Positions 16,310-43,002 of a stretch of 48,859 bases of DNA are shown piece after piece; positions within the stretch are counted from its first letter, which is position 1; each line of letters begins with the position of its first letter. Under the pieces are notes generated by a model. It was not told the origin of the DNA, did no database searches, and saw only the letters and a program-made list of their open reading frames with translations. Source of the DNA: Porphyromonadaceae bacterium UBA4702 (GTDB lineage Bacteria > Bacteroidota > Bacteroidia > Bacteroidales > Muribaculaceae). Both the position numbers and the translations under genes were made by a program. The DNA is taken from assembly GCA_002404675.1 (NCBI GenBank), contig DHKE01000071.1, positions 4,212-53,070 on the forward strand, in the 5' to 3' direction.

Positions 16310-16348
16310 TTTGGTACTCGCGCAATGCCGAGTACCAAAAGTACCAAA
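16310..16348 (+). repeat. Inverted repeat with an extra direct half-site in the integrase leader
   Basis: TTTGGTACTCG (16310-16320) and CGAGTACCAAA (16329-16339) form an 11-bp perfect dyad with an 8-base loop. A further GTACCAAA at 16341-16348 repeats the half-site. Lying just after the -7 box, it may be an operator, an integrase-binding site or a leader hairpin. Confidence 0.6.
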
Positions 16349-16373
16349 ACGAACCTCTAATACAGGCACGACC

Positions 16374-17525
16374 ATGAACACCGCAAAAGCAAAAGAGCCG
16401 GTAAAGCTCCGGCAGAAGACACTCGCCAACGGAAACGTGTCGCTCTACCTCGCGACTTACGTCCGGGGACAGCGCGAATACGAGTTCCTGCGGCTGTACC
16501 TAATCCCCGAAAAGACGAGGGACGACCGACAGCGCAACCGCGAGACCCTCGCGCTCGCCAACTCCATAAAGGCGCAACGCATCGTCGAGATACAGAACGG
16601 CTTGCACGGCTTCAACACCGCAGGCAAGGAACACACGCGCTTCTTCGACTACTACCTCGCACTCGCCGAAAAGCGCAAGAAGAAGGAGAGCAACAGCAAC
16701 TTCAGCAACTGGGCATCGGCTCTCCACCACCTGCACAGCTACGAGCGCAGGGAGGACATCACATTTGCCGACATTACCCCGAAGTGGGTGCAGGGCTTCC
16801 GCGACTACCTCGACCGTGAAGCAGAGGCCTTCGGAAACGACACACGCAAGCGGAAAGACCGCCGCTCACTGTCACCAAACTCAAAACAAGCGTATTTCAA
16901 CAAACTGAGGGCGACACTGAACCAAGCATACGAAGACGGCATCATACTCAAGAACCCGATGAAAGGCATACACACATTTTCTTCAGTCGAGGGTACACGC
17001 GAGTACCTCACGCTCGAAGAGATACGCGCCCTTGCCGCCACGGACTGCGACTATCCCGAAGTGAAGCGGGCGTTCCTGTTCTCGTGCCTGACAGGGCTGC
17101 GGCGGTCGGACGTGGAAAAGTTGACATGGGACGAAGTAACGCAACTGGACGGCAGGACGCGGCTCGTGTTCCGCCAGAAGAAGACCGGCGGGCAAGAATA
17201 CCTCGACATCACGCCGCAAGCAGCGCAACTGGTCGGCACTCGCGGAACTGCCGCTGCCGACAGCCACGTATTCGGCAACTTCCTATCTCCCTCACGCACC
17301 AACCAGGAACTGCGAATATGGACGCAGCGGGCAGGGATAGGCAAGCACATCACCTTCCACTGCGCACGCCACACATTCGCCGTGCTGATGCTCACGCTCG
17401 ACACCGACATTTACACCGTCAGCAAGCTGCTCGGACACCGCGAGCTGCGCACCACGCAGATATACGCCAAGATTGTAGACCGCAAGAAGCAGCAAGCCGT
17501 AGACAACATCCCCGAAATCTTCTGA
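16374..17525 (+). CDS. Tyrosine-type site-specific recombinase (phage integrase)
   Basis: 383 residues from the ATG at 16374. Arm-binding/SAM-like domains occupy the first 180. The catalytic domain shows Arg in SCLTGLRRSDVEKLTW, the His-x-x-Arg pair in HITFHCARHTF, the second His in LLGHRELRTT and the nucleophile Tyr in QIYAKI. It should integrate and excise the prophage. Its position directly after mnmE, reading away from it, marks the left end. An upstream TTG at 16311 is in frame, but lies inside the dyad and is less likely. Confidence 0.93.
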   Translation: MNTAKAKEPVKLRQKTLANGNVSLYLATYVRGQREYEFLRLYLIPEKTRDDRQRNRETLALANSIKAQRIVEIQNGLHGFNTAGKEHTRFFDYYLALAEKRKKKESNSNFSNWASALHHLHSYERREDITFADITPKWVQGFRDYLDREAEAFGNDTRKRKDRRSLSPNSKQAYFNKLRATLNQAYEDGIILKNPMKGIHTFSSVEGTREYLTLEEIRALAATDCDYPEVKRAFLFSCLTGLRRSDVEKLTWDEVTQLDGRTRLVFRQKKTGGQEYLDITPQAAQLVGTRGTAAADSHVFGNFLSPSRTNQELRIWTQRAGIGKHITFHCARHTFAVLMLTLDTDIYTVSKLLGHRELRTTQIYAKIVDRKKQQAVDNIPEIF

Positions 17526-28641: not shown

Positions 28642-29640
28642 ATGGCAACAACAGCACAGGCACGGCAGACAGCCGTGACGACAGCGGCACAAGCAGCCGC
28701 ACAGGCACCGGCGCGGCGCGACAACGCCGTGACCGCATTCGAGTCGATACTCCGCAGCGACTTCATCGACCAGCAGCTCACCTCCGCGCTCGCCGAGAAC
28801 AAAGGCACTTTCGTATCGTCGCTCGTGGAGCTTTACACAGGCGACAAGGCACTGCAGACGTGCAACCCCAAGCTGGTGGCGCTCGAAGCCGTCAAGGCGG
28901 CATCGCTCAACCTCCCCATAAACAAGGCGCTGGGCTTCGCATACATCGTGGTGTACAACAACAGCGTCAAGGCGACAGACCCAAGGACAGGGCGCGACAC
29001 GTGGACGAAAGTCCCCACGCCGACATTCGTCCTCGGCTACAAGGGCTTCATCCAGCTCGCCTCGCGAACCGGGCAGTACAAGACCATTAACGCCACGCCG
29101 GTATACGAGGGGGAATTCCGCTCGCAGAACCGCCTCACCGGCGAAATAGACATCACAGGCAAGCGAACCTCCGACAAGGTGGTCGGCTACGCAGGCTACA
29201 TCGAGTACCTCAACGGCTTCACCAAAGCCGAGTACGTCACCGTGGCAGACATGGCGCGGCACGCCCTGCGCTACTCCCCCTCGCTGCCCAAGTCCACAAA
29301 GCTCGAAGACCTCGTGCGCCTCGCCAACGAAGAGCCGTCAGCCAAGCGCGTGGGCTGGCTCGGCAACTTCGGCGACATGGCGGTCAAGACGCTAATCCGC
29401 CGCATCATCTCCAAGTACGGCTACATGTCGGTGCAGATGCAGAACGCAGTCGCCCTCGACATCAACGCCGACACCGCGATGACTGCCGCCGACCGCGACC
29501 AGCTCATCGGGCAGGAGCAGACGCAGACGGTGAACCTCGAGGAAGCCGAGTACGAGGCCATAGACACCGCCTCGGGCGAAGTAACGGCTGCGCCCTCCGA
29601 GGCACAGGCAGACGAAAAGGACGACGACCCCGGCTACTGA
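28642..29640 (+). CDS. recT: RecT-family single-strand annealing recombinase
   Basis: 332 residues. After an Ala-rich tail, the RecT core is visible: LVELYTGDKALQTCNPKLVA, IVVYNNSVKA, PTFVLGYKGFIQLASRTGQY and VAGYIEY-like VVGYAGYIEYLNGF. RecT anneals complementary single strands and promotes phage recombination. No RecE exonuclease is present; a metallo-beta-lactamase-fold gene overlaps the stop instead. The last 40 residues are acidic. Confidence 0.92.
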   Translation: MATTAQARQTAVTTAAQAAAQAPARRDNAVTAFESILRSDFIDQQLTSALAENKGTFVSSLVELYTGDKALQTCNPKLVALEAVKAASLNLPINKALGFAYIVVYNNSVKATDPRTGRDTWTKVPTPTFVLGYKGFIQLASRTGQYKTINATPVYEGEFRSQNRLTGEIDITGKRTSDKVVGYAGYIEYLNGFTKAEYVTVADMARHALRYSPSLPKSTKLEDLVRLANEEPSAKRVGWLGNFGDMAVKTLIRRIISKYGYMSVQMQNAVALDINADTAMTAADRDQLIGQEQTQTVNLEEAEYEAIDTASGEVTAAPSEAQADEKDDDPGY

Positions 29641-30455
29641 TGACAGCGACTAAAACGACACCGAAACCGCGAGCCGCGCAGGGGAGCGTCACCGGGGCAG
29701 TCACGATGACCTGCCTGGGCAGCTCCTCCGCCGGCAACGGCTACATACTCGCCGCACGCGACGGCATCCTCCTGCTCGAAGCCGGCATACGCTTCGCACG
29801 GGTCAAGGAAGCCCTCGGCTGGGACATCAGCAGCGTGTGCGGATGCCTCGTCACGCACCGCCACGGCGACCACGCAGCGCACCTGCGCGAGACGGCAAGA
29901 GCAGGAATACGCATACTCGCCCCCGAAGACACCGTCAGCCGCCTTGCGCCACGCGACCGCATACTCGCCACGGCGGCGATGCCGATGCACGGCTACCGCC
30001 TCGGCCGCTTTAAGGCTTTCGCCTTCCCCCTGCGGCACGCAGACAGCGACGGAACGCCCTGCCCATGCCTCGGCTGGGTCATAGACCACCCCGAAATGGG
30101 GCGGCTGCTGTTCGCCACCGACACAATGGCGGTAACGCACGACTTCCCCGGCATCGACCATGCCATGATAGAAGCCAACTACTCCGACCCGCTGCTCGAA
30201 AGCGCAATCGAGAAGGGCATCACCGACCCCTCGCAAAGGTCGCGCCTGATGAGTTCGCACCTCGAGCTGCGCCAGACCGCCGCCATACTCCGCCGCCCGG
30301 GCTTCGCCGCGTTGCAGGAGACAGTGCTGCTCCACCTCAGCAGCCGCAACAGCGACCCCGAGCAGTTCCGCCGCGAAATTGAGCAGTCCACAGGACGGCC
30401 GGCATACGTTGCCATCCCGGGGCTGAAAGTCACATTCTCAAAAGAACCCTACTGA
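29640..30455 (+). CDS. Metallo-beta-lactamase-fold hydrolase paired with RecT
   Basis: 271 residues. CLGSSSAGNGYILAARDGIL begins the fold and THRHGDHAAHL is the metal-binding H-x-H-x-D-H motif. HDFPGIDHAMIEANYSDPLL gives a further conserved His and acidic residues. The pattern is that of the YycJ/WalJ and RecT-associated MBL group, expected to cut nucleic acids. Its start shares one base with the recT stop (TGATG), so it is probably the nuclease partner that makes single strands for RecT. Substrate not proven. Confidence 0.85.
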   Translation: MTATKTTPKPRAAQGSVTGAVTMTCLGSSSAGNGYILAARDGILLLEAGIRFARVKEALGWDISSVCGCLVTHRHGDHAAHLRETARAGIRILAPEDTVSRLAPRDRILATAAMPMHGYRLGRFKAFAFPLRHADSDGTPCPCLGWVIDHPEMGRLLFATDTMAVTHDFPGIDHAMIEANYSDPLLESAIEKGITDPSQRSRLMSSHLELRQTAAILRRPGFAALQETVLLHLSSRNSDPEQFRREIEQSTGRPAYVAIPGLKVTFSKEPY

Positions 30456-31252
30456 TGGAAGAGAGAAACAGCTTCGTATTTTTCCTCAACTGGAAGAACA
30501 TACTCCGCAAGTACCCCATGGAGGTACGCTGCGCCGTATACGACGCAGTCTTCGAATATGCCGAAAGCGGCACGCTCCCCGAGGGGATGTCCGACGCGGC
30601 GATGATGGCCTTTGAGTTCATCAAGCAGGACATCGACCGCATGCAGGACAAGTACGAGCAGACCTGCGAGAAGCGCAAGGCCGCCGTAAACAAGCGGTGG
30701 GAGAAGGCGGGCAAAGGCAAAAAGTCCGATACAAAAGCATCTGCGGAATACAAAAGTATTTCAGATGATACAAACGGTACAAAAGCATCAGAGCCGATAC
30801 AAGCCGTACATAATGATAATGATAATGAAGATGATTATGAGTCTCCTTACGGAGACGTGAGTGCCGCGCACGCACGCGAGGCGGAAGCCGAAGAGGAAGC
30901 GGACGATTCTGACGACGCGGCGATTGCAACGACATTCGTAGACCGCCACCCCAAGAGCCGTGACGAGTTCTGCAAGAACAACCGCTGCACCGCCGAGGAG
31001 TTCCGCGACACAATCGCGGCGGTACTCGCCGAATGGCGCATCATCGGCTGGAAGGGGAAGCGCATACGCGACGGAACTGACAGCCACCAGACCGCGCACC
31101 TGCTCTCGGCGGCGCGGATAAAGCTCGAGAGAAAAAGGGAGCAAGAAGCAAAAACCGCAAACCGAAACCAATATGCTGAAAATAGACTTCAACGACGCAG
31201 AGGCATGGTACAAGTGTCTCAAGACCCGGAAAAGTTTAAGGAAGCGTTTTAG
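30455..31252 (+). CDS. DUF6291-domain replication initiator-like protein
   Basis: 265 residues. The N-terminal 85 form the DUF6291 domain. A low-complexity linker (85-150) rich in Asp, Asn and Glu is encoded by the iteron-like repeat element. A C-terminal domain (150-235) contains KSRDEFCKNNRCTAEEF and TDSHQTAHLLSAARIKLERK. A helicase loader follows. This arrangement recalls lambda O, whose gene contains the origin and is followed by the loader P. Initiator function is inferred from context; no catalytic motif is expected. It overlaps the next gene by 80 bases. Confidence 0.72.
   Translation: MEERNSFVFFLNWKNILRKYPMEVRCAVYDAVFEYAESGTLPEGMSDAAMMAFEFIKQDIDRMQDKYEQTCEKRKAAVNKRWEKAGKGKKSDTKASAEYKSISDDTNGTKASEPIQAVHNDNDNEDDYESPYGDVSAAHAREAEAEEEADDSDDAAIATTFVDRHPKSRDEFCKNNRCTAEEFRDTIAAVLAEWRIIGWKGKRIRDGTDSHQTAHLLSAARIKLERKREQEAKTANRNQYAENRLQRRRGMVQVSQDPEKFKEAF
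30728..30878 (+). repeat. Composite iteron/AT-rich/hairpin element, copy A (candidate origin)
   Basis: GATACAAA-like cores start at 30728, 30747, 30767, 30777 and 30796, so spacings are 19, 20, 10 and 19 bases. A TGATAA-rich tract follows (30811-30840), then hairpin GTCTCC-TTAC-GGAGAC (30841-30856) and CGCGCACGCACGCG (30865-30878). The order matches lambda-type origins. It lies inside the initiator-like gene and encodes the linker. Confidence 0.65.
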
Positions 31253-31883
31253 CCTTCCGCTGACGGCGGAGCAGTGCGCCCAAGCCCTCGGCGCGGCGGT
31301 GCGCGTAATCGTCGAGCACCGGGGCGGCGTTTTGCAGCCCGACGAGGAGACGCGCCGCCACATCAGGCAAGCCGCCGAGTGGCTAACTAACCCGCAGGGT
31401 CGCTCCGGGCTGCTGATGTCGGGGATGTTCGGCAACGGCAAGTCCACCCTCATGCGTGCCGTAACCGACCTCGTGGCGTTCCACACCGAAGCCGAAAGCG
31501 GATATTCCGGCCGCAAGGCTTTCGCCTGCAAGACCGCCAAGGAGGTGGCGATGATGTGCTGCGGCACGGACAGGGACTTCGCCGAATACCGCAAGCTCAT
31601 CGACGAGCCGCTGCTCGCAATCGACGACCTCGGCGAAGAGCCGGCGGAGGTGATGCGCTTCGGACAGACGTTCAGCCCCGTCACCGACCTGCTGCTCGCA
31701 CGCTACGACAAGCCGTGGCGCGTCACGCTGGCGACGACCAACCTCGGACACACCGAGATAGAGAGCCACTACGGAGGGCGCATCCTCGACCGCTTCCGCG
31801 AGATGATGACCGAGATAATATTTGCCAACCCCTCCTACCGGGGCAAGAACCAGCCGCCAGCGGCAAAACAGGCAAAACCATGA
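31173..31883 (+). CDS. DnaC-like replicative helicase loader ATPase
   Basis: 236 residues. Walker A LMSGMFGNGKSTLMRA near 84, Walker B LLAIDDLGEEP, sensor 1 VTLATTNLGHTEIESHYGGR and a closing arginine region RILDRFREMMTEIIF match DnaC/IstB-type AAA+ loaders. It would load the host replicative helicase at the phage origin. The N-terminus (KIDFNDAEAWYKCL) would contact helicase. It begins inside the end of the initiator-like gene. Confidence 0.87.
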   Translation: MLKIDFNDAEAWYKCLKTRKSLRKRFSLPLTAEQCAQALGAAVRVIVEHRGGVLQPDEETRRHIRQAAEWLTNPQGRSGLLMSGMFGNGKSTLMRAVTDLVAFHTEAESGYSGRKAFACKTAKEVAMMCCGTDRDFAEYRKLIDEPLLAIDDLGEEPAEVMRFGQTFSPVTDLLLARYDKPWRVTLATTNLGHTEIESHYGGRILDRFREMMTEIIFANPSYRGKNQPPAAKQAKP

Positions 31884-32032
31884 ACAAGGCACGCGACTTC
31901 ATCCGCCGCGTCTGGCGGCTTCTCGACAGCGACAGGGCTGCGATGACGGGCATAATCCTGATGCTCGCCACGGCAGCAGTCGCCGCGATATTCTGCATCA
32001 CGATAGCAACAATCAAAATCAACACACCATGA
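31880..32032 (+). CDS. Small single-pass membrane protein, 50 residues
   Basis: A basic N-terminus (MNKARDFIRRVWRLL) precedes one hydrophobic segment (AMTGIILMLATAAVAAIFCI). ATGA overlaps on both sides tie it to the loader and the DUF4406 gene. Unknown function. Confidence 0.6.
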   Translation: MNKARDFIRRVWRLLDSDRAAMTGIILMLATAAVAAIFCITIATIKINTP

Positions 32033-32340
32033 CCACAGAACGCACCATCTACATCTCGCTGCCCATATCAGGGCGCGACCCCGAAGAAGCGCGGCAGGAG
32101 GCCGACAGCGTCAAGCACGCCCTCTCGCGCCAGGGCTACAGACCCGTAAGCCCCTTCGACATCTGCCACGGAAAACACCCGCAGTATGCCGACTACATCT
32201 GCAACGACCTCCGCGCACTCGCCGACTGCGACGCGATATTCATGTGCCAGGGGTGGAACGCCTCACGCGGCTGCCGCATCGAACACAAGTTCGCCGAGGA
32301 GTTCGGCAAGCGCATCATCTACCAGCAAGCAGAGGAATGA
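32029..32340 (+). CDS. DUF4406 protein (nucleoside 2-deoxyribosyltransferase-like fold)
   Basis: 103 residues. YISLPISGRDPEEARQEADS at the N-terminus and ALADCDAIFMCQGWNASRGC, then RIEHKFAEEFGKRIIY, are the DUF4406 signatures. The fold resembles nucleoside deoxyribosyltransferases, with an acidic residue near the C-terminal block. Such phage genes may act on nucleotide pools; substrate unknown. Confidence 0.85.
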   Translation: MTTERTIYISLPISGRDPEEARQEADSVKHALSRQGYRPVSPFDICHGKHPQYADYICNDLRALADCDAIFMCQGWNASRGCRIEHKFAEEFGKRIIYQQAEE

Positions 32341-32342
32341 CC

Positions 32343-32858
32343 ATGAAGCACAAGATACGCCCGACCAACGACCGGCTGGTCGAATGGTCGACAGAGGAGG
32401 AAGCGCAGATGGCATCAGTCATCAGCTCCCTCCGCAGCCGCGACGAGCCGAAAGCGGCGGCAGCGGCACCGCGCCCGGTACGCAGGTCGGCATTGCAGCG
32501 CACGCACCGCTGCTGGTACAGGGACGACGGCAGCAGTCCGCCGCCGCAGCCGAAGACGGCAAAGGAGACCTTCTACTCCAACCTCCCCGAGATACGCCGA
32601 ATGTGCGCACACCCGGGCTACAGGATGCGCGACATCGCCGCGAGGCACGGCATGTCCGCGTCCACGCTGGCATGGTACGCACACGCATCGCGAATGAGGG
32701 TAGTCCGCTACTGCCGCTCAAGGGCTGCCCTGCTCCGCGGCAAGAGGGCAATCCGCGAGATGCTCCGCACCGGCAAGCCAACAAAAGCCATTGCACGCCA
32801 CGTCGGCGTGACGACGGCGACCCTCAACAAGTTCATCAGCAAACACAAACTCAAATAA
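32343..32858 (+). CDS. Helix-turn-helix phage protein, 171 residues
   Basis: The first 80 residues are a poorly ordered Ala/Pro/Arg region. Then come two helix-turn-helix-like units: MRDIAARHGMSASTLAWYAH and KAIARHVGVTTATLNKFISK, each with the spacing of resolvase- or terminase-type DNA-binding helices. The strongly basic C-terminus supports DNA binding. Target unknown. Confidence 0.72.
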   Translation: MKHKIRPTNDRLVEWSTEEEAQMASVISSLRSRDEPKAAAAAPRPVRRSALQRTHRCWYRDDGSSPPPQPKTAKETFYSNLPEIRRMCAHPGYRMRDIAARHGMSASTLAWYAHASRMRVVRYCRSRAALLRGKRAIREMLRTGKPTKAIARHVGVTTATLNKFISKHKLK

Positions 32859-32869
32859 CCAACACGACA

Positions 32870-33241
32870 ATGACAATCACAGGAACAATCAAGCAGATAC
32901 TCCCCGAACAGAGCGGAGTGTCGAAAGCTGGGAAGAACTGGCGCAGACGCGACCAGATACTCGACATCACCGAAAACCCGCAGTACCCCAAGCTGCTCTG
33001 CTTCACCCTCATGAACGACCGCATCGACGCGGCCGGCATCGCCGAGGGGCAGCGCGTCACCATCGACTGCGACATCGACAGCCGCGAGTACAACGGACGC
33101 TGGTACACCTCCGTCACCGCATGGAGGGTAACGCCCGAAGCCGAAACGGCGGCGGCAACCACGGCAGCACCGCAGCAGCCAGCGCAGCCCGACAACTCCC
33201 TGCCGCCGTTGCAGCAGGACTTCGACCCCATACCCTTCTGA
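32870..33241 (+). CDS. SSB-like OB-fold protein (DUF3127-like)
   Basis: 123 residues. MTITGTIKQILPEQSGVSKA opens an OB-fold, with strands in RVTIDCDIDSREYNGRWYTS. A Gln/Pro/Ala linker leads to the ending DFDPIPF, close to the DDDIPF tip with which bacterial SSB proteins recruit partners. It probably covers single-stranded DNA for the phage replication and RecT systems. Confidence 0.75.
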   Translation: MTITGTIKQILPEQSGVSKAGKNWRRRDQILDITENPQYPKLLCFTLMNDRIDAAGIAEGQRVTIDCDIDSREYNGRWYTSVTAWRVTPEAETAAATTAAPQQPAQPDNSLPPLQQDFDPIPF

Positions 33242-33646
33242 AATCGCTGCCCCGATACAAAAATACTATACTACCATTTGTATTTTCGGGGGCGATACAA
33301 AAGTAGTATAGTATCATTTGTATTTTTCGAGCGATACAAAAATACAAGAGCATTTCGGCTGATACAAACGATACCTCTATGATAATGATAATGAATATGA
33401 TAATGATGACTCCTTACGGAGTCGTGTGTGAAACGCGCACGCACGCGCGTGGGCTACCGCCTCGGCGGTCTTCAATGGCGAAAACCGCGGCAACCGCAAG
33501 GCGGCAAAGGCGGCTCACGCCGCTGCCATATAAGGCAGCAGCCACGCCGTGGACGCACCCCGAAAAACAGGGGGGCGGCGCGGCGACGCGCAGAAACGCC
33601 CCGAATTTCGCGCCAACTACTCCGAAACGATAAACCATACCGCCGA
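33242..33646. other. Largest gene-free gap in the prophage; candidate second origin or control region
   Basis: 405 bases without a convincing gene. The left half is AT-rich and holds tandem 40-bp units and copy B of the composite element. The right half is GC-rich with hairpin GCTGCC-ATATAA-GGCAGC (33522-33539) and other inverted repeats. Frames across it have compositions unlike proteins. Confidence 0.6.
33254..33447 (+). repeat. Composite iteron/AT-rich/hairpin element, copy B
   Basis: GATACAAA starts at 33254, 33294, 33333 and 33361, with inverted TTTGTAT at 33277 and 33317. The first 79 bases are two tandem units of 40 and 39 bp, each with an ATACAAA/TTTGTAT dyad. Then come TGATAATGATAATGAA-like repeats (33380-33407), hairpin GACTCC-TTAC-GGAGTC (33408-33423) and CGCGCACGCACGCG (33434-33447). 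The order is as in copy A. Confidence 0.7.
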
Positions 33647-34009
33647 ATGAAGAAAACGCAACACAGAAGCCCGCAGACGGCAAAAACAGACCTTTTCACC
33701 GCGCTTATCCAGAGCGACCTCCACGTCCGCTGCGAAAAGGAGTACAAGTTCCACCCCACCAGACGCTGGCGGTTCGACTACGCGATACCACAGTTCCGCA
33801 TCGCCATCGAGATAGACGGCGGAGTGTGGACTGGCGGGCGGCACACGCGCCCGAAAGGCTATCTCGGCGACTTGGAAAAGTTTAACGCCGCTGCGGCAAT
33901 GGGCTGGGTCGTGCTGAAATTCACGCCAGCAACGCAGTATAAATCAGGCACTTTCAATATCATCAAAGAGACAATAAGCGTGTTAAAAGCAACAACTAAA
34001 ACTTCATAA
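33647..34009 (+). CDS. VSR/DUF559-like phage endonuclease
   Basis: 120 residues. RRWRFDYAIPQFRIAIEIDG and the downstream FNAAAAMGWVVLKFTP give the core of a small PD-(D/E)xK or VSR-like nuclease: Asp in FDYA and Glu in IEIDGG. Such phage proteins may resolve branched DNA. The start at 33647 (MKKTQHRSPQTAK) follows the large gap; a longer upstream frame overlies non-coding sequence. Confidence 0.78.
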   Translation: MKKTQHRSPQTAKTDLFTALIQSDLHVRCEKEYKFHPTRRWRFDYAIPQFRIAIEIDGGVWTGGRHTRPKGYLGDLEKFNAAAAMGWVVLKFTPATQYKSGTFNIIKETISVLKATTKTS

Positions 34010-35371: not shown

Positions 35372-36805
35372 ATGCAGACAGAAAAAGTCCCGCTGAAAAG
35401 CGTCAACACCAACAAAGACAACCCGCGCAAGATTGACAAGGCGCAGTTCGACCGCCTCGTCATCTCGCTGCTCGTGTTCCCCGAAATGCAGCAGCTCCGC
35501 CCCATTGTCGTGGACGAGACAGGCACTGCCCTCGGCGGCAACATGCGGTACCGCGCTCTGACAGCAATCGCGCAGAAGAAGACCGCCGCTAACATCGCCG
35601 ACACCCTCCGCGACAGCCGCGACTTCGCCAAGAAGACACCCCAGCAGCAGAAGCGGCTGCTCGACTACTGGGAGCAGTGGCTCGCCAGTCCGACCGCGAC
35701 CATTGTCCGCGCCGAGACGCTCACGCCCGAGCAGAAGCGCGAGTTCATCATCAAGGACAACGTCTCTTTCGGCGACTGGGACGAGGAGATACTGCTCGCC
35801 GACTTCGACATGGCTGACCTCGAAGACTGGGGATTTACAGACCTCGACGACCTCGGCGTTGAACTGCCGGTGGACGACACGGAAGCCGAGGAGGACGACT
35901 TCACGGACGAAGACGCGGAGGATGCGCCGACGCGGTGCAGCCCCGGCGACATCTGGCGGCTCGGCGACCACGTCCTCATGTGCGGCGACAGCACCAAGGC
36001 GAACGACGTTGCAAGGCTCATGGACGGTGTCAGTGCCGACCTGCTGCTCACAGACCCTCCGTACAACGTCGATTACAGCGGCAAAAACGAGATGCTCAAC
36101 AAAGCAGACAAAGGCAACCGCGTACAAAAGGCCATAGCCAACGACAGGATGTCCGATGCAGCTTTTGAAGCATTCCTGACCGCGGCTTTCGAGTCCGCAA
36201 ACCAAGCGATGAAGCCCGGTGCGGCTTTCTATATCTGGCACGCAGACTCGAAAGGGCTTGCATTCCGTCAAGCACTCTCAAACGCAGGTCTGACGCTTCG
36301 CGAAAATCTTGTATGGGTAAAAAACGCGATTGTCCTCGGTCGCCAGGACTACCAGTGGAAGCACGAGCCGTGCCTGTACGGCTGGAAAGACGGCGCGGCT
36401 CACTACTTCGTTGACGACCGCAGCCAAAGCACCGCCATAGAGGACGCGGCGGTCGATTACCGCAAGCTCAAGAAGGAGGAGCTGCTCAAGGTTGTGCTGG
36501 AACTGACCTCGCCGAGGGTCGCCACGACCGTAATCTACGAGAACAAGCCCTCGCGCAGCGACATCCACCCGACAATGAAGCCGGTGAAGCTGATGGCTCG
36601 ATTAATCAAGAACAGCAGCAAGCCGGGGCAGACAGTCCTCGACCTGTTCGGAGGAAGCGGCACGACGCTGATTGCTTGCGAACAGCTCAAGCGCAAGTGC
36701 TGCATGATGGAGTTCGACCCGAAATACTGCGACGCTATCCTCGCCCGGTGGGAGAAGCTCACTGGCAGGGAAGCCGAACTGGCAAGCCGTGGCAGCAACG
36801 AATAA
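35372..36805 (+). CDS. ParB-like nuclease domain fused to a DNA adenine/cytosine-N4 methyltransferase
   Basis: 477 residues. The first 100 show the ParB/Srx-type fold (DNPRKIDKAQFDRL, then RPIVVDETGTALGGNMRYRA). The methyltransferase follows, with catalytic TDPPYNVDYSG at about 226 and the SAM motif DLFGGSGTT at about 424, the order of beta-class enzymes. It would methylate adenine or cytosine amino groups, probably to protect phage DNA. It directly precedes the terminase genes, common for such fusions in phages. Target sequence unknown. Confidence 0.92.
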   Translation: MQTEKVPLKSVNTNKDNPRKIDKAQFDRLVISLLVFPEMQQLRPIVVDETGTALGGNMRYRALTAIAQKKTAANIADTLRDSRDFAKKTPQQQKRLLDYWEQWLASPTATIVRAETLTPEQKREFIIKDNVSFGDWDEEILLADFDMADLEDWGFTDLDDLGVELPVDDTEAEEDDFTDEDAEDAPTRCSPGDIWRLGDHVLMCGDSTKANDVARLMDGVSADLLLTDPPYNVDYSGKNEMLNKADKGNRVQKAIANDRMSDAAFEAFLTAAFESANQAMKPGAAFYIWHADSKGLAFRQALSNAGLTLRENLVWVKNAIVLGRQDYQWKHEPCLYGWKDGAAHYFVDDRSQSTAIEDAAVDYRKLKKEELLKVVLELTSPRVATTVIYENKPSRSDIHPTMKPVKLMARLIKNSSKPGQTVLDLFGGSGTTLIACEQLKRKCCMMEFDPKYCDAILARWEKLTGREAELASRGSNE

Positions 36806-40014: not shown

Positions 40015-43002
40015 ATGGCGACACCCTCCGAATACGAAAGGAAGCAGCGACGCAACGTAGAAGCCCTCCAGGCACGCATCGACCGCATTTTCCGGAAGGC
40101 AGCCGAGGAAGCGGCACGCATCGGCATCTCGATACGCGACCTCCCTGACGGCCGCATTTTCTCATTTGACGACTACCCCAAGACACTCAAGCAGGTCGAG
40201 CGGCTGCTCGACGCGCTCCACTCCTCGGTGCAGACAACCGTAACCGACGGCATACGCCTCGGCTGGTCGCTCGCCGACGACAAGAACGACGCGCTGGTGC
40301 GCCAAGTGTTCGGCCGGGGCGCGGACAAACTCACGCCGGCACAGCAGCGCATATACCTCGCACGCAACGCCGACGCGCTCGAGGCGTTCATCGCCCGGAA
40401 GACAGCCGGGCTAAGCCTCTCCGACCGCGTGTGGCGGTACACAAACGCTTTCCGCAGCGAGATTGAAATGGGGCTTGACATCGGCATACGAAGCGGACTG
40501 CCGGCATCGCAGATGGCCCGCGAGCTGAAACAGTACCTCCAGCACCCCGACAAGCTGTTCCGCCGCGTCCGCGACAAGCACGGCATGCTGAAACTCTCGA
40601 AAGCCGCTGCAGCTTTCCACCCGGGCAGGGGCGTGTACCGAAGCTCGTACAAGAACGCACGCCGCCTCGCAGCCACCGAGACTAACATCGCATACCGCAC
40701 GGCTGACTACGAGCGGCGGCAAAGCCAGCCTATGGTGGTGGGCATCGAAGTCCACCTGAGCGGCAACCACACCTGCCTCGGGCGCGACGGCAAGATGCAC
40801 GAGCTGACAGACATTTGCGACGACCTCGCCGGCAAGTACCCCAAGAACTTCAAGTTCACCGGCTGGCATCCCCTCTGCCGCTGTTTCGCCACCGAGATAC
40901 TGAAGACCGACAAGGAGCTGGCTGAAGACCGCCGCCGCATCCTACGCGGCGAAGAGCCGCTACCCTCCTCCGACAGCGTAAACTCCGTCAAGGAATACCC
41001 CCCTGCCTTCAAGGAATGGGTCGAGAAGAACGCCGGCAGGATAGAGGCGGCGGAACAGCGCGGCAAGCTGCCCTACTTCATCGCCGACAACAAGCGGACG
41101 GTTGACCGCCTCCTCGGCAGAGTTCCGTCCATGACACCCCTCGAAGCAGCGGCACAAAGGCACGCAAACCGAACAGCCAAGCAGAGCGGCGCAATACAGC
41201 AGCGGTGGAACGACAGGCGCATCTCAATGCTGGACGCGGCTGTCGCAAACGGTCTGCTGCCAAAGGAGTGCAGCAAAGCCATCGCCAGTCTGCGCAGCCT
41301 GAACCTCGCCGGCAAGTTCGATGAAATCGGACGACGCATCAAGACCTTGCAGAACGCCGCATTGCGGCATCAGGGCCGACCGCAGAGCCAAATCGACCGA
41401 ATACAAGACGCATGGGACGCAAAACTCCGGAGGGACGAGACGACAAGGCTCGTCGCAAGGAATGTCCTCAAAGCCGCGCAGAACTGGCAGGAGGTGGACT
41501 TCAGCCGCCTCGAGCAGCTCGTCAAGGACAACCGCCTCGGGGCTATGGGAGCGGAGACAAAGAACGTCGCACAGGCTATCAAGGCCATGCGTGACAAGGA
41601 AAACGCCCTCAAAGACCTTATCCCTGACGTTCACGCCCTCCACGGCAAATACACCCTCGCTGAACTTGCCGACGCACACAAAAGCATCCGTGACACCCTC
41701 GACTTCTGGAAGACTAAGTACGGGGCTGACCTCGCCACAGACAGCAACCTTGCAAAACTCAAGAGCGAACTGGAACTTAAAATCAAGTTCGTCGCGAACC
41801 CCGGGGCATTCAAGGCTGGCGCAGTCCAGAAGAAGACATGGCAAGTCCAGCAAGACGCATACGCCAAGCTGCTCGAAAAGGTGGAAACGCGCATAGAGTT
41901 CACCACCGTCATTAATCCGAAATACGAGGAGTTGCTCAAGTTCAAGACCACATCCAAGGACTTCAACAACTATATGGCAAAAGTCAAGGCGGCTATTGAT
42001 GCCGGTGACGCGGCAACGGCTAAGCACTTCCTCTCATCCGCCGAGACACGGAAGAAGAGCCTCGAGTTCAAGCGCAAACGCAAGGCAAAAACAACATCAA
42101 GTACAACATTCAATGTTGACAAGCTCTACGCTGGAGGAACACCGTTCACAGCTGCGGAAATCGCCAAGATTAAAGACTTCGAAGACCAAATCGTTCAGAG
42201 TATGCTTAACCGCGGTTTTGTGGACGGCTCACTCAACACTAAATATCATGACTATATTTTGCGCCTTTCAGAGAAATACTACAGCAGGCAGTTGTCTCTT
42301 TACGGCGCAGCAGAACAAGCAGCAATGAAAAAGGCTGCTGATACCTACCTTGCAAGGGCGTCAATCAACCCAGGCTATATATGGGGAACAAATGTCGGCG
42401 GCGTTTACAATGGACGACAGTACCAAAAAAGGCTCTCCTACTTGAAACGGTTGAAAGCTATCCACGACAACGGACTCACAGGGGACGAGTTGTCGATTGT
42501 TCAACGTTTCACCAATGGCTCGACATTCAGCAACGCCTACAACCTTCGCCACACATCCCCATATTGGGAGAACAAATGGAAAGATAAAATGTCAAGACTC
42601 TCGGCAGCACAAAGCAAAGAGATGGAACAGATTATCGAAGAATGGTCTCAAGGGGCAAACTACACCCTTGACCGAATGGTGCGATATAACGGCGTAACAT
42701 TCCGAGGACTTGACAGCGGAGGCGGCCCTGAACTGAGGGCTCAACTCACAAAGGCTTTCAACAGCGGCACGGCATGGGTCAATGAAGCCTCATGTTCAAC
42801 ATCAATGAAATATTCGGTGGCGAAAAGTTTCGATGGAGACCTTATAATGGTTATTCACAACAAAACAGGAGCATACATCCACGCAGTGTCGGATTATAGT
42901 TCGGAATATGAAATCATGACTATGCGCGGCGCAAAATACCGCGTAATTAAACCGCCAACCTTTGTAGGCGGTCGGTGGATTGCAGAACTTGAAGAAATCT
43001 AA
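40015..43002 (+). CDS. Head morphogenesis protein with C-terminal ADP-ribosyltransferase domain
   Basis: 995 residues. The N-terminal 310 match Mu gpF-like minor head proteins (TNIAYRTADYERRQ, HTCLGRDGKMHELTD, FTGWHPLCRCFATEIL). A long helical middle follows. The last 110 residues carry an R-S-E ART fold: Arg897 (VTFRGL), Ser928-Thr-Ser930 (CSTSMK) and Glu964-x-Glu966 (SSEYEIM), the pattern of arginine-modifying ARTs. It could enter the host with the genome and modify a target early, as T4 Alt does. From about 42,100 on, third positions are less GC-rich, suggesting separate acquisition. Confidence 0.85.
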   Translation: MATPSEYERKQRRNVEALQARIDRIFRKAAEEAARIGISIRDLPDGRIFSFDDYPKTLKQVERLLDALHSSVQTTVTDGIRLGWSLADDKNDALVRQVFGRGADKLTPAQQRIYLARNADALEAFIARKTAGLSLSDRVWRYTNAFRSEIEMGLDIGIRSGLPASQMARELKQYLQHPDKLFRRVRDKHGMLKLSKAAAAFHPGRGVYRSSYKNARRLAATETNIAYRTADYERRQSQPMVVGIEVHLSGNHTCLGRDGKMHELTDICDDLAGKYPKNFKFTGWHPLCRCFATEILKTDKELAEDRRRILRGEEPLPSSDSVNSVKEYPPAFKEWVEKNAGRIEAAEQRGKLPYFIADNKRTVDRLLGRVPSMTPLEAAAQRHANRTAKQSGAIQQRWNDRRISMLDAAVANGLLPKECSKAIASLRSLNLAGKFDEIGRRIKTLQNAALRHQGRPQSQIDRIQDAWDAKLRRDETTRLVARNVLKAAQNWQEVDFSRLEQLVKDNRLGAMGAETKNVAQAIKAMRDKENALKDLIPDVHALHGKYTLAELADAHKSIRDTLDFWKTKYGADLATDSNLAKLKSELELKIKFVANPGAFKAGAVQKKTWQVQQDAYAKLLEKVETRIEFTTVINPKYEELLKFKTTSKDFNNYMAKVKAAIDAGDAATAKHFLSSAETRKKSLEFKRKRKAKTTSSTTFNVDKLYAGGTPFTAAEIAKIKDFEDQIVQSMLNRGFVDGSLNTKYHDYILRLSEKYYSRQLSLYGAAEQAAMKKAADTYLARASINPGYIWGTNVGGVYNGRQYQKRLSYLKRLKAIHDNGLTGDELSIVQRFTNGSTFSNAYNLRHTSPYWENKWKDKMSRLSAAQSKEMEQIIEEWSQGANYTLDRMVRYNGVTFRGLDSGGGPELRAQLTKAFNSGTAWVNEASCSTSMKYSVAKSFDGDLIMVIHNKTGAYIHAVSDYSSEYEIMTMRGAKYRVIKPPTFVGGRWIAELEEI

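Follow-up and report, generated by a model that had tools for sequence, protein, structure and literature searches.

Does a prophage gene whose product belongs to a domain family of unknown function, DUF6291, encode a replication initiator together with the origin on which that initiator would act? We asked this of a 48.9-kb stretch of DNA from a gut bacterium, hereafter the window, which by its gene content is a prophage: an integrase gene lies at 16311-17525, and head, portal and terminase genes start at 37 kb. Our analysis indicates that the DUF6291 protein is very probably a phage replication initiator whose gene contains such an origin. Support comes from the anatomy of the locus, its recurrence across the family, repeats that are independent of reading frame, a link between the repeat cores and the DUF6291 domain, and low duplex stability.

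Anatomy of the two elements in the window

The proposed initiator scores 77.6 bits against DUF6291, for which the curated cut-off is 27.2. Its AlphaFold model, built on an 87-row alignment, contains two confidently predicted helical parts (residues 11-87 and 154-264) joined by a linker predicted to be disordered, with pLDDT below 50 in segments between residues 98 and 147. Searches with the protein returned DUF6291 as the only Pfam family, with neither an O family nor a RepA_N domain, and no named initiator among PHROGs at E 0.001; a "primosomal protein" PHROG covers residues 51-131 at E 0.0026. Searches of the PDB by sequence or by fold gave zero matches at E 0.001, and in a viral structure library eight of 76 matches lay at E 0.001, all with low TM scores (five DUF6291 proteins, one DnaD-domain protein, one annotated "replication initiation and membrane attachment", and one uncharacterised).

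The genes around it are listed in Table 1. Downstream, the loader gene (31173-31883) begins 80 bp before the DUF6291 gene ends; it matched zero Pfam families at E 0.001, and its DnaC-like assignment comes from the PHROGs. The start of the DUF3127 gene was chosen by eye inside a longer open frame (32186-33241). In the same orientation, 4.2 kb upstream, lies a stand-alone DUF6291 paralog that shares 43% identity over 89 columns with the N-terminal domain of the proposed initiator (BLASTP) and is possibly a regulator or partner of it. Directly 5′ of the DUF6291 gene lies a gene for a metallo-beta-lactamase-fold protein (29640-30455; PF12706, E 6e-13). Elsewhere in the prophage, ParB-like and DNA methyltransferase matches fall in one fusion-like protein (35372-36805), and a 995-aa head-morphogenesis-like protein (40015-43002, PHROG matches) has an ADP-ribosyltransferase-like terminal part that falls just under the Pfam cut-off (23.0 versus 23.4 bits). 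No close relatives turned up when viral_contigs and genome_contigs were scanned with a single sequence; a protein search found three close proteins beyond the window's own.

Table 1 Positions of the genes and sequence elements considered here, in window coordinates
Feature	Position	Strand	Basis
Stand-alone DUF6291 paralog, 96 aa	26246..26536	+	PF19808 E 8e-15
DUF6291 gene, 265 aa, proposed initiator	30455..31252	+	PF19808 E 8e-22, residues 6-84
Element 1 iterons, six cores	30728..30812	+	sequence; spacing fits family-wide 9.85-bp phase
Proposed unwinding element of element 1: period-6 tract of AATGAT units	30812..30841	+	TRF (30810-30840); lag-6 score 23/30
Element 1 hairpin GTCTCC-TTAC-GGAGAC	30841..30856	+	-5.3 kcal/mol as DNA, z -2.7
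CGCGCACGCACGCG motif, common to both elements	30865..30878	.	sequence, element 1-element 2 alignment
DnaC-like helicase loader gene	31173..31883	+	phrog_50 E 4.9e-22, phrog_3277 E 4.8e-13
DUF3127 / single-strand DNA-binding protein gene	32870..33241	+	PF11325 E 2.9e-26, phrog_4932 E 3.5e-14
Element 2 iterons	33253..33377	.	TRF 40-bp unit; alignment to element 1
Element 2 period-6 tract, ATGATA units	33379..33407	+	TRF
Element 2 hairpin GACTCC-TTAC-GGAGTC	33408..33423	+	alignment to element 1, fold
CGCGCACGCACGCG motif of element 2	33434..33447	.	alignment to element 1

Within the DUF6291 gene, six short cores, GATACAAA at 30728, AATACAAA at 30747, GATACAAA at 30767, GGTACAAA at 30776, GATACAAG at 30796 and CGTACATA at 30805, follow each other at steps of 19, 20, 9, 20 and 9 bp and in differing codon phases. 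Together with the tract and hairpin behind them they form element 1, which encodes residues 92-142, in the low-confidence linker. The preliminary description had reported five GATACAAA-like cores at steps of 19, 20, 10 and 19; repeats of this type are indeed present, and both their number and their spacing are revised here. Its account of a TGATAA-rich tract and a hairpin 3′ of the cores was borne out by TRF and by folding, as were the placement in the linker-coding part of the gene, which the AlphaFold linker covers, and the DnaC-like nature of the next gene, on which PHROGs agree and Pfam is silent. A cumulative GC-skew profile, suggested earlier as a check, runs without a switch at 30.8 and 33.3 kb and counts neither for nor against an origin there.

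A second, similarly built element lies about 2.5 kb downstream at 33253-33447, 3′ of the DUF3127 gene and outside recognised genes, with its parts in the same order as in element 1. Its forward cores start at 33254, 33294, 33333, 33341, 33361 and 33370 and its reverse cores end at 33284 and 33324, so that some GATACAAA cores form inverted pairs within the 40-bp tandem unit. Counted from the fourth-last core, the last four cores, the first TGATAA and the hairpin fall at 0, 9, 29, 38, 47 and 74 in element 1 and at 0, 8, 28, 37, 47 and 75 in element 2. The two hairpins differ by a compensatory change of a T-A to an A-T pair, and CGTGNGTG and CGCGCACGCACGCG both recur behind the hairpin of element 2, where folding of the CGCGCACGCACGCG copy was no better than that of shuffled sequences. 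From tract to hairpin the reading frame of element 2 differs from that of element 1; a mechanically called 84-aa open frame (33379-33633), which begins in the element 2 tract, has no Pfam match. The exact hairpin pattern had zero matches in viral_contigs, Rfam returned no match, and DnaA boxes are absent near the elements, the window's two matches lying far off. L146, L147 and the window (30865-30878 and 33434-33447) share a CGCGCACGCGCG-like stretch 3′ of the tract region, which encodes "AHARE" in the genes; "NAHARE" is also encoded by L163, a locus without a clear tract.

Both elements stand out from the rest of the prophage in composition and predicted stability. GC content is 0.581 across the window versus 0.345 in element 1 and 0.310 in element 2. 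All six exact copies of GATACAAA in the 48.9 kb fall inside one or other element, versus 0.85 copies expected and a maximum of three in 100 shuffles. When non-overlapping 120-bp stretches were ranked by nearest-neighbour stability, the stretch from 33296 was the lowest in the window and that from 30729 the third lowest; with stretches of 50 or 80 bp, element 2 came third, and the rank of element 1 fell to eighth or ninth. Within the initiator reading, element 2, with its more numerous exact cores, the inverted pairs and the lowest 120-bp stability, could be the sole working origin of this phage, and element 1 a fading ancestral copy under coding constraint. We think this unlikely: element 1 sits at the position typical of nearly all relatives, and from its fourth-last core through tract to hairpin it matches the register of element 2 within 1 bp.

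Recurrence of the layout across DUF6291 loci

Loci were gathered by comparing the DUF6291 alignment with IMG/VR (74 loci) and GTDB genomes (50), from five of six phage records, and through genome searches (39 more). A DUF6291 domain profile marked 183 genes in these 168 loci plus the window, and 161 linkers were kept once duplicates, the short paralog of the window and genes extending less than 250 nt past the domain had been dropped; the set is a sample drawn by profile and pattern rather than a census, with 30 further loci left out of the counts. In 127 of the 161 linkers, no other sampled 300-nt window of the locus equalled the best period-6 score of the 300 nt that follow the domain, and in 131 the tract lay in the top 5% of the locus, with 30 missing this mark. 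The tract unit approximates [A/C][T/A]GA[T/A]A, and the coding strand carries more A than T in 115 of the 131. A hairpin occurs in 29 of the 131 loci, an enrichment over the 6.8% found in 20,083 background windows; at this frequency, we rejected the idea that the layout has a hairpin as its regular third component.

Between domain and tract, 118 of the 131 loci contain a repeated 8-mer (absent from 13; in the locus top 2% in 90), and 94 contain one at an offset that is not divisible by three. The 371 offsets from 118 non-redundant loci cluster at 9-10, 19-20, 29-30, 39-40, 48-50 and 58-60 bp, which corresponds to a period of 9.85 bp with a vector strength of 0.78, versus 0.07 for 7,932 background windows drawn from these loci; a null that preserves codon phase gave at most 0.19 in 2,000 trials. 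Equal-length zones 3′ of the tract contained repeats in 28 of 118 loci, with a strength of 0.24. By phylum, the phase was seen in 19 loci from Bacteroidota (0.74) and 39 from Bacillota (0.67), while 60 of the 118 loci carry no phylum assignment. The layout is thus no speciality of Bacteroidales. Among 393 Bacteroidales-order genomes searched, G033 (loci L199, L211 and L213-L219) holds twelve DUF6291 matches, and other genomes with any hold one or two.

Second copies of the array are rare. Apart from the window, only L119 among the 131 loci (flanks of 1.5 to 5 kb) has a second iteron array, at 1730-1889, with the tract of its DUF6291 gene following about 670 bp downstream, and we rejected such an array as a family trait. 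None was found in 20 loci extended to between 6 and 19 kb; in that test rows of true domains scored at most 7, the null from the 131 loci reached 9, and a score of 10 came from a single row based on a chance profile segment. This rarity, with L119 and the window the only cases among 131 loci and none among the 20 extended ones, speaks for element 2 as a recent and functionless duplication, a reading to which we give a small though appreciable chance. Against it, element 2 has diverged and still retains cores, tract and a paired stem with a compensatory change, an argument that is weak with two copies to compare.

Across 106 full-length members, similarity of the cores correlated with similarity of the DUF6291 domain given the C-terminal part (partial rank correlation 0.34, reached in 0 of 500 permutations), versus 0.01 for the C-terminal part (190 of 500). 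Restricting the comparison to a trimmed zone and to frame-shifted matches in 80 members gave 0.29 for the domain (0 of 500) and -0.02 for the C-terminal part (349 of 500). Part of this linkage may be co-inheritance, because domain and cores adjoin. PHROG matches among 91 members comprised a DnaD-like loader (16), an O-like initiator (16, the window protein not among them), replication initiation (16) and "primosomal protein" (60); the last may reflect linker make-up, since it covers the domain end and linker wherever positions are shown.

The gene behind DUF6291 was taken as the first open frame of at least 150 aa, which 34 of the 131 loci lack. Pfam assigned the 97 scanned genes to IstB/DnaC-type (11), AAA (10), DUF6633 (9), DnaB_C (8) and G39P loader (7) families, among others; many had no replication-family match, and unrelated families such as methylases also occur. 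The elements might instead be operators, through which DUF6291 would control its own operon and the genes past 33.4 kb without any replication start there. Iteron-type sites are frequently autoregulatory, element 2 is intergenic and upstream of more early genes, and of three promoter-like sites in 30400-33800 (1.4 expected in the region, sd 1.1) two fall within element 2. However, element 1 lies mid-gene, and the A-rich tract and the frequent pairing with helicase-loader or helicase genes suit an origin better. We therefore regard control by operators without replication as improbable.

DNA signal or by-product of the linker

A repetitive protein could by itself produce repetitive DNA, and the repeats and tract might merely reflect a low-complexity linker with no role as DNA. 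Element 1 is coding and its linker is predicted to be disordered, and some of the repeats are in frame. We compared 103 coding linkers with 300 synonymous-codon shuffles. Observed linkers contained 322 offsets in all versus 75 after shuffling, and their vector strength was 0.79 versus a mean of 0.62 (maximum 0.76) in the shuffles; the shuffled linkers keep phase because part of the spacing is set by amino-acid repeats. Of off-frame offsets, 170 were observed versus a mean of 22 and a maximum of 39 in the shuffles, and taken alone they have a strength of 0.88. The window's own linker has two off-frame offsets, a number matched by one of its 300 synonymous-codon shuffles. Across the family the residues encoded by the tract vary (ND, TD, NV, KE), while its 6-nt period is constant.

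Loci in which the DUF6291 frame ends early offer a second comparison. This frame stops 5′ of the tract in 17 of the 131 loci. In 11 of the 17 the tract is spanned by a different open frame of 60 aa or more, as a protein-level source of the repeats would allow; in the other six, that strand has no frame of this length which starts 5′ of the tract and spans it, and in L104, with repeats at 10-bp steps, it has zero open frames. With the excess of off-frame offsets, these six loci and the copy outside recognised genes in the window, we consider it extremely improbable that the linker alone accounts for the pattern. In four of the early-stop loci (L057, L100, L108 and L113) the DUF6291 frame stops after "...TERF" before the tract and a +1 overlapping frame holds the remaining linker and more, an identical form that makes a split gene or frameshifting possible.

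Known origins and a proposed mode of action

The arrangement had been likened to that of phage lambda, whose helicase loader is the product of gene P. In lambda, iterons followed by an AT-rich tract lie in the middle of gene O, and gene P comes next (PMC7466680); ectopic lambda origins block initiation by lambda (PMC4488673). The window likewise has repeats and an AT-rich tract inside an initiator-like gene with a helicase-loader gene directly downstream, and the comparative evidence lends good support to a putative origin inside the initiator gene just before the loader gene. The details differ. Lambda iterons are 18 bp long at steps of 20, 24 and 23 bp (L169), whereas the window's cores are about 8 bp long at steps of 9, 19 and 20 bp; lambda O has neither a period-6 tract (best lag-6 score 13) nor the 9.85-bp phase. 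The domain of the window's proposed initiator also differs from O, and, unlike lambda, the window has an extra copy outside the gene. With spacing, tract and protein family all different, "lambda-like" is apt as an analogy only.

The Bacillus phage SPP1 is a closer parallel. It has oriL in gene 38 and an intergenic oriR, each with direct repeats and an AT-rich unwinding element and both bound by gp38; its helicase loader is gp39 and its helicase gp40, and forks are thought to stall at oriR-bound gp38 and so to trigger concatemers (PMC6316719). Compared by description, the window's two similarly built elements, one in an initiator-like gene and one between genes, resemble this pair, and the G39P loader family occurs in seven of the 97 genes downstream of DUF6291 relatives. 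The SPP1 origins are about 13 kb apart in the same account, versus 2.5 kb for the window elements. For domain layout, plasmids of the pSK41 type with RepA_N initiators are another closer parallel. In pSK41 rep, whose in-gene origin is known from experiment, Rep boxes at mid-gene are bound by the protein's N-terminal domain, the origin-encoded linker is dispensable as protein, and the N- and C-terminal domains are structurally DnaD-like (PMC5703833). The RepA_N domain is absent from the window protein, and RepA_N structures are missing among the matches listed by the fold search, which falls short of proving a different fold. Among 29 RepA_N genes from Clostridia, 26 have repeats at 22-23 bp, a spacing the window does not share, and four have a strong period-6 tract (11 by a laxer rule), these genes being unfiltered for relatedness. 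Since our scan finds repeats in RepA_N, where an embedded origin is known, it detects such arrays, and the DUF6291 spacing is its own.

The period-6 tract does recur in a second initiator family. Behind the Phage_rep_org_N domain (PF09681) it was the locus top in 20 of 25 cases, all 20 with scores of at least 20. There it is mostly of AGAGAT type, versus ATGATA or CTGATA in DUF6291, and the commonest repeat offsets are 11-12, 21, 24 and 36 bp, without the 9.85-bp phase. The tests differ in scale: for PF09681 the rest of the gene was compared with 300-nt windows, and for RepA_N and HTH_36 600 nt with 600-nt windows. HTH_36 was rejected as a further tract family, with a score of at least 19 in four of 28 (12 of 28 by top-of-locus alone) in a set with many short open frames that was unfiltered for relatedness. 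In Oenococcus phages, replisome-organiser domains are described as shuffled (PMC12403621). The literature available to us, partial and with few subscription papers, contained no mention of DUF6291 and no description of such an origin, Bacteroides phages included.

From these comparisons we infer binding by DUF6291, melting of the tract, helicase loading and replication, in the following order. The N-terminal DUF6291 domain would bind the phased GATACAAA-type cores in its own gene, with the array along one face of the helix, and this binding would open the adjoining A-rich period-6 tract. The C-terminal part, together with the DnaC-like loader, could then load the replicative helicase where the strand has opened. 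Element 2 would be bound by the DUF6291 protein too; like SPP1 oriR, it might be a second origin, or else a site that arrests forks or titrates the protein.

DnaA-trios at bacterial origins are read as a single strand. By analogy, the period-6 A-rich tract may be an unwinding and strand-loading code common to unrelated initiators (DUF6291 and Phage_rep_org_N), read single-stranded and kept in coding DNA as an alternating dipeptide linker (NDND, TDTD, NVNV, KEKE), with the prophage's second copy forming an SPP1-like pair that sets a replication-mode switch; we offer this tentatively, as possible rather than probable. The initiator reading would give DUF6291, so far a domain of unknown function that occurs in both Bacteroidota and Bacillota phages and prophages, a testable role: initiating replication from an origin that its gene itself contains. 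Cores phased at 9.85 bp and followed by a period-6 tract would provide a sequence rule for locating origins in uncultured gut phages, and the occurrence of the tract in a second initiator family makes the melting of phage origins a directly testable question.

A further variation of the gene was seen in L014, L016 and L022, where a DUF6291 start is followed by HNH-like sequence, recognised by eye, and then by a second DUF6291 gene; an HNH gene seems to have entered the initiator gene or its immediate vicinity.
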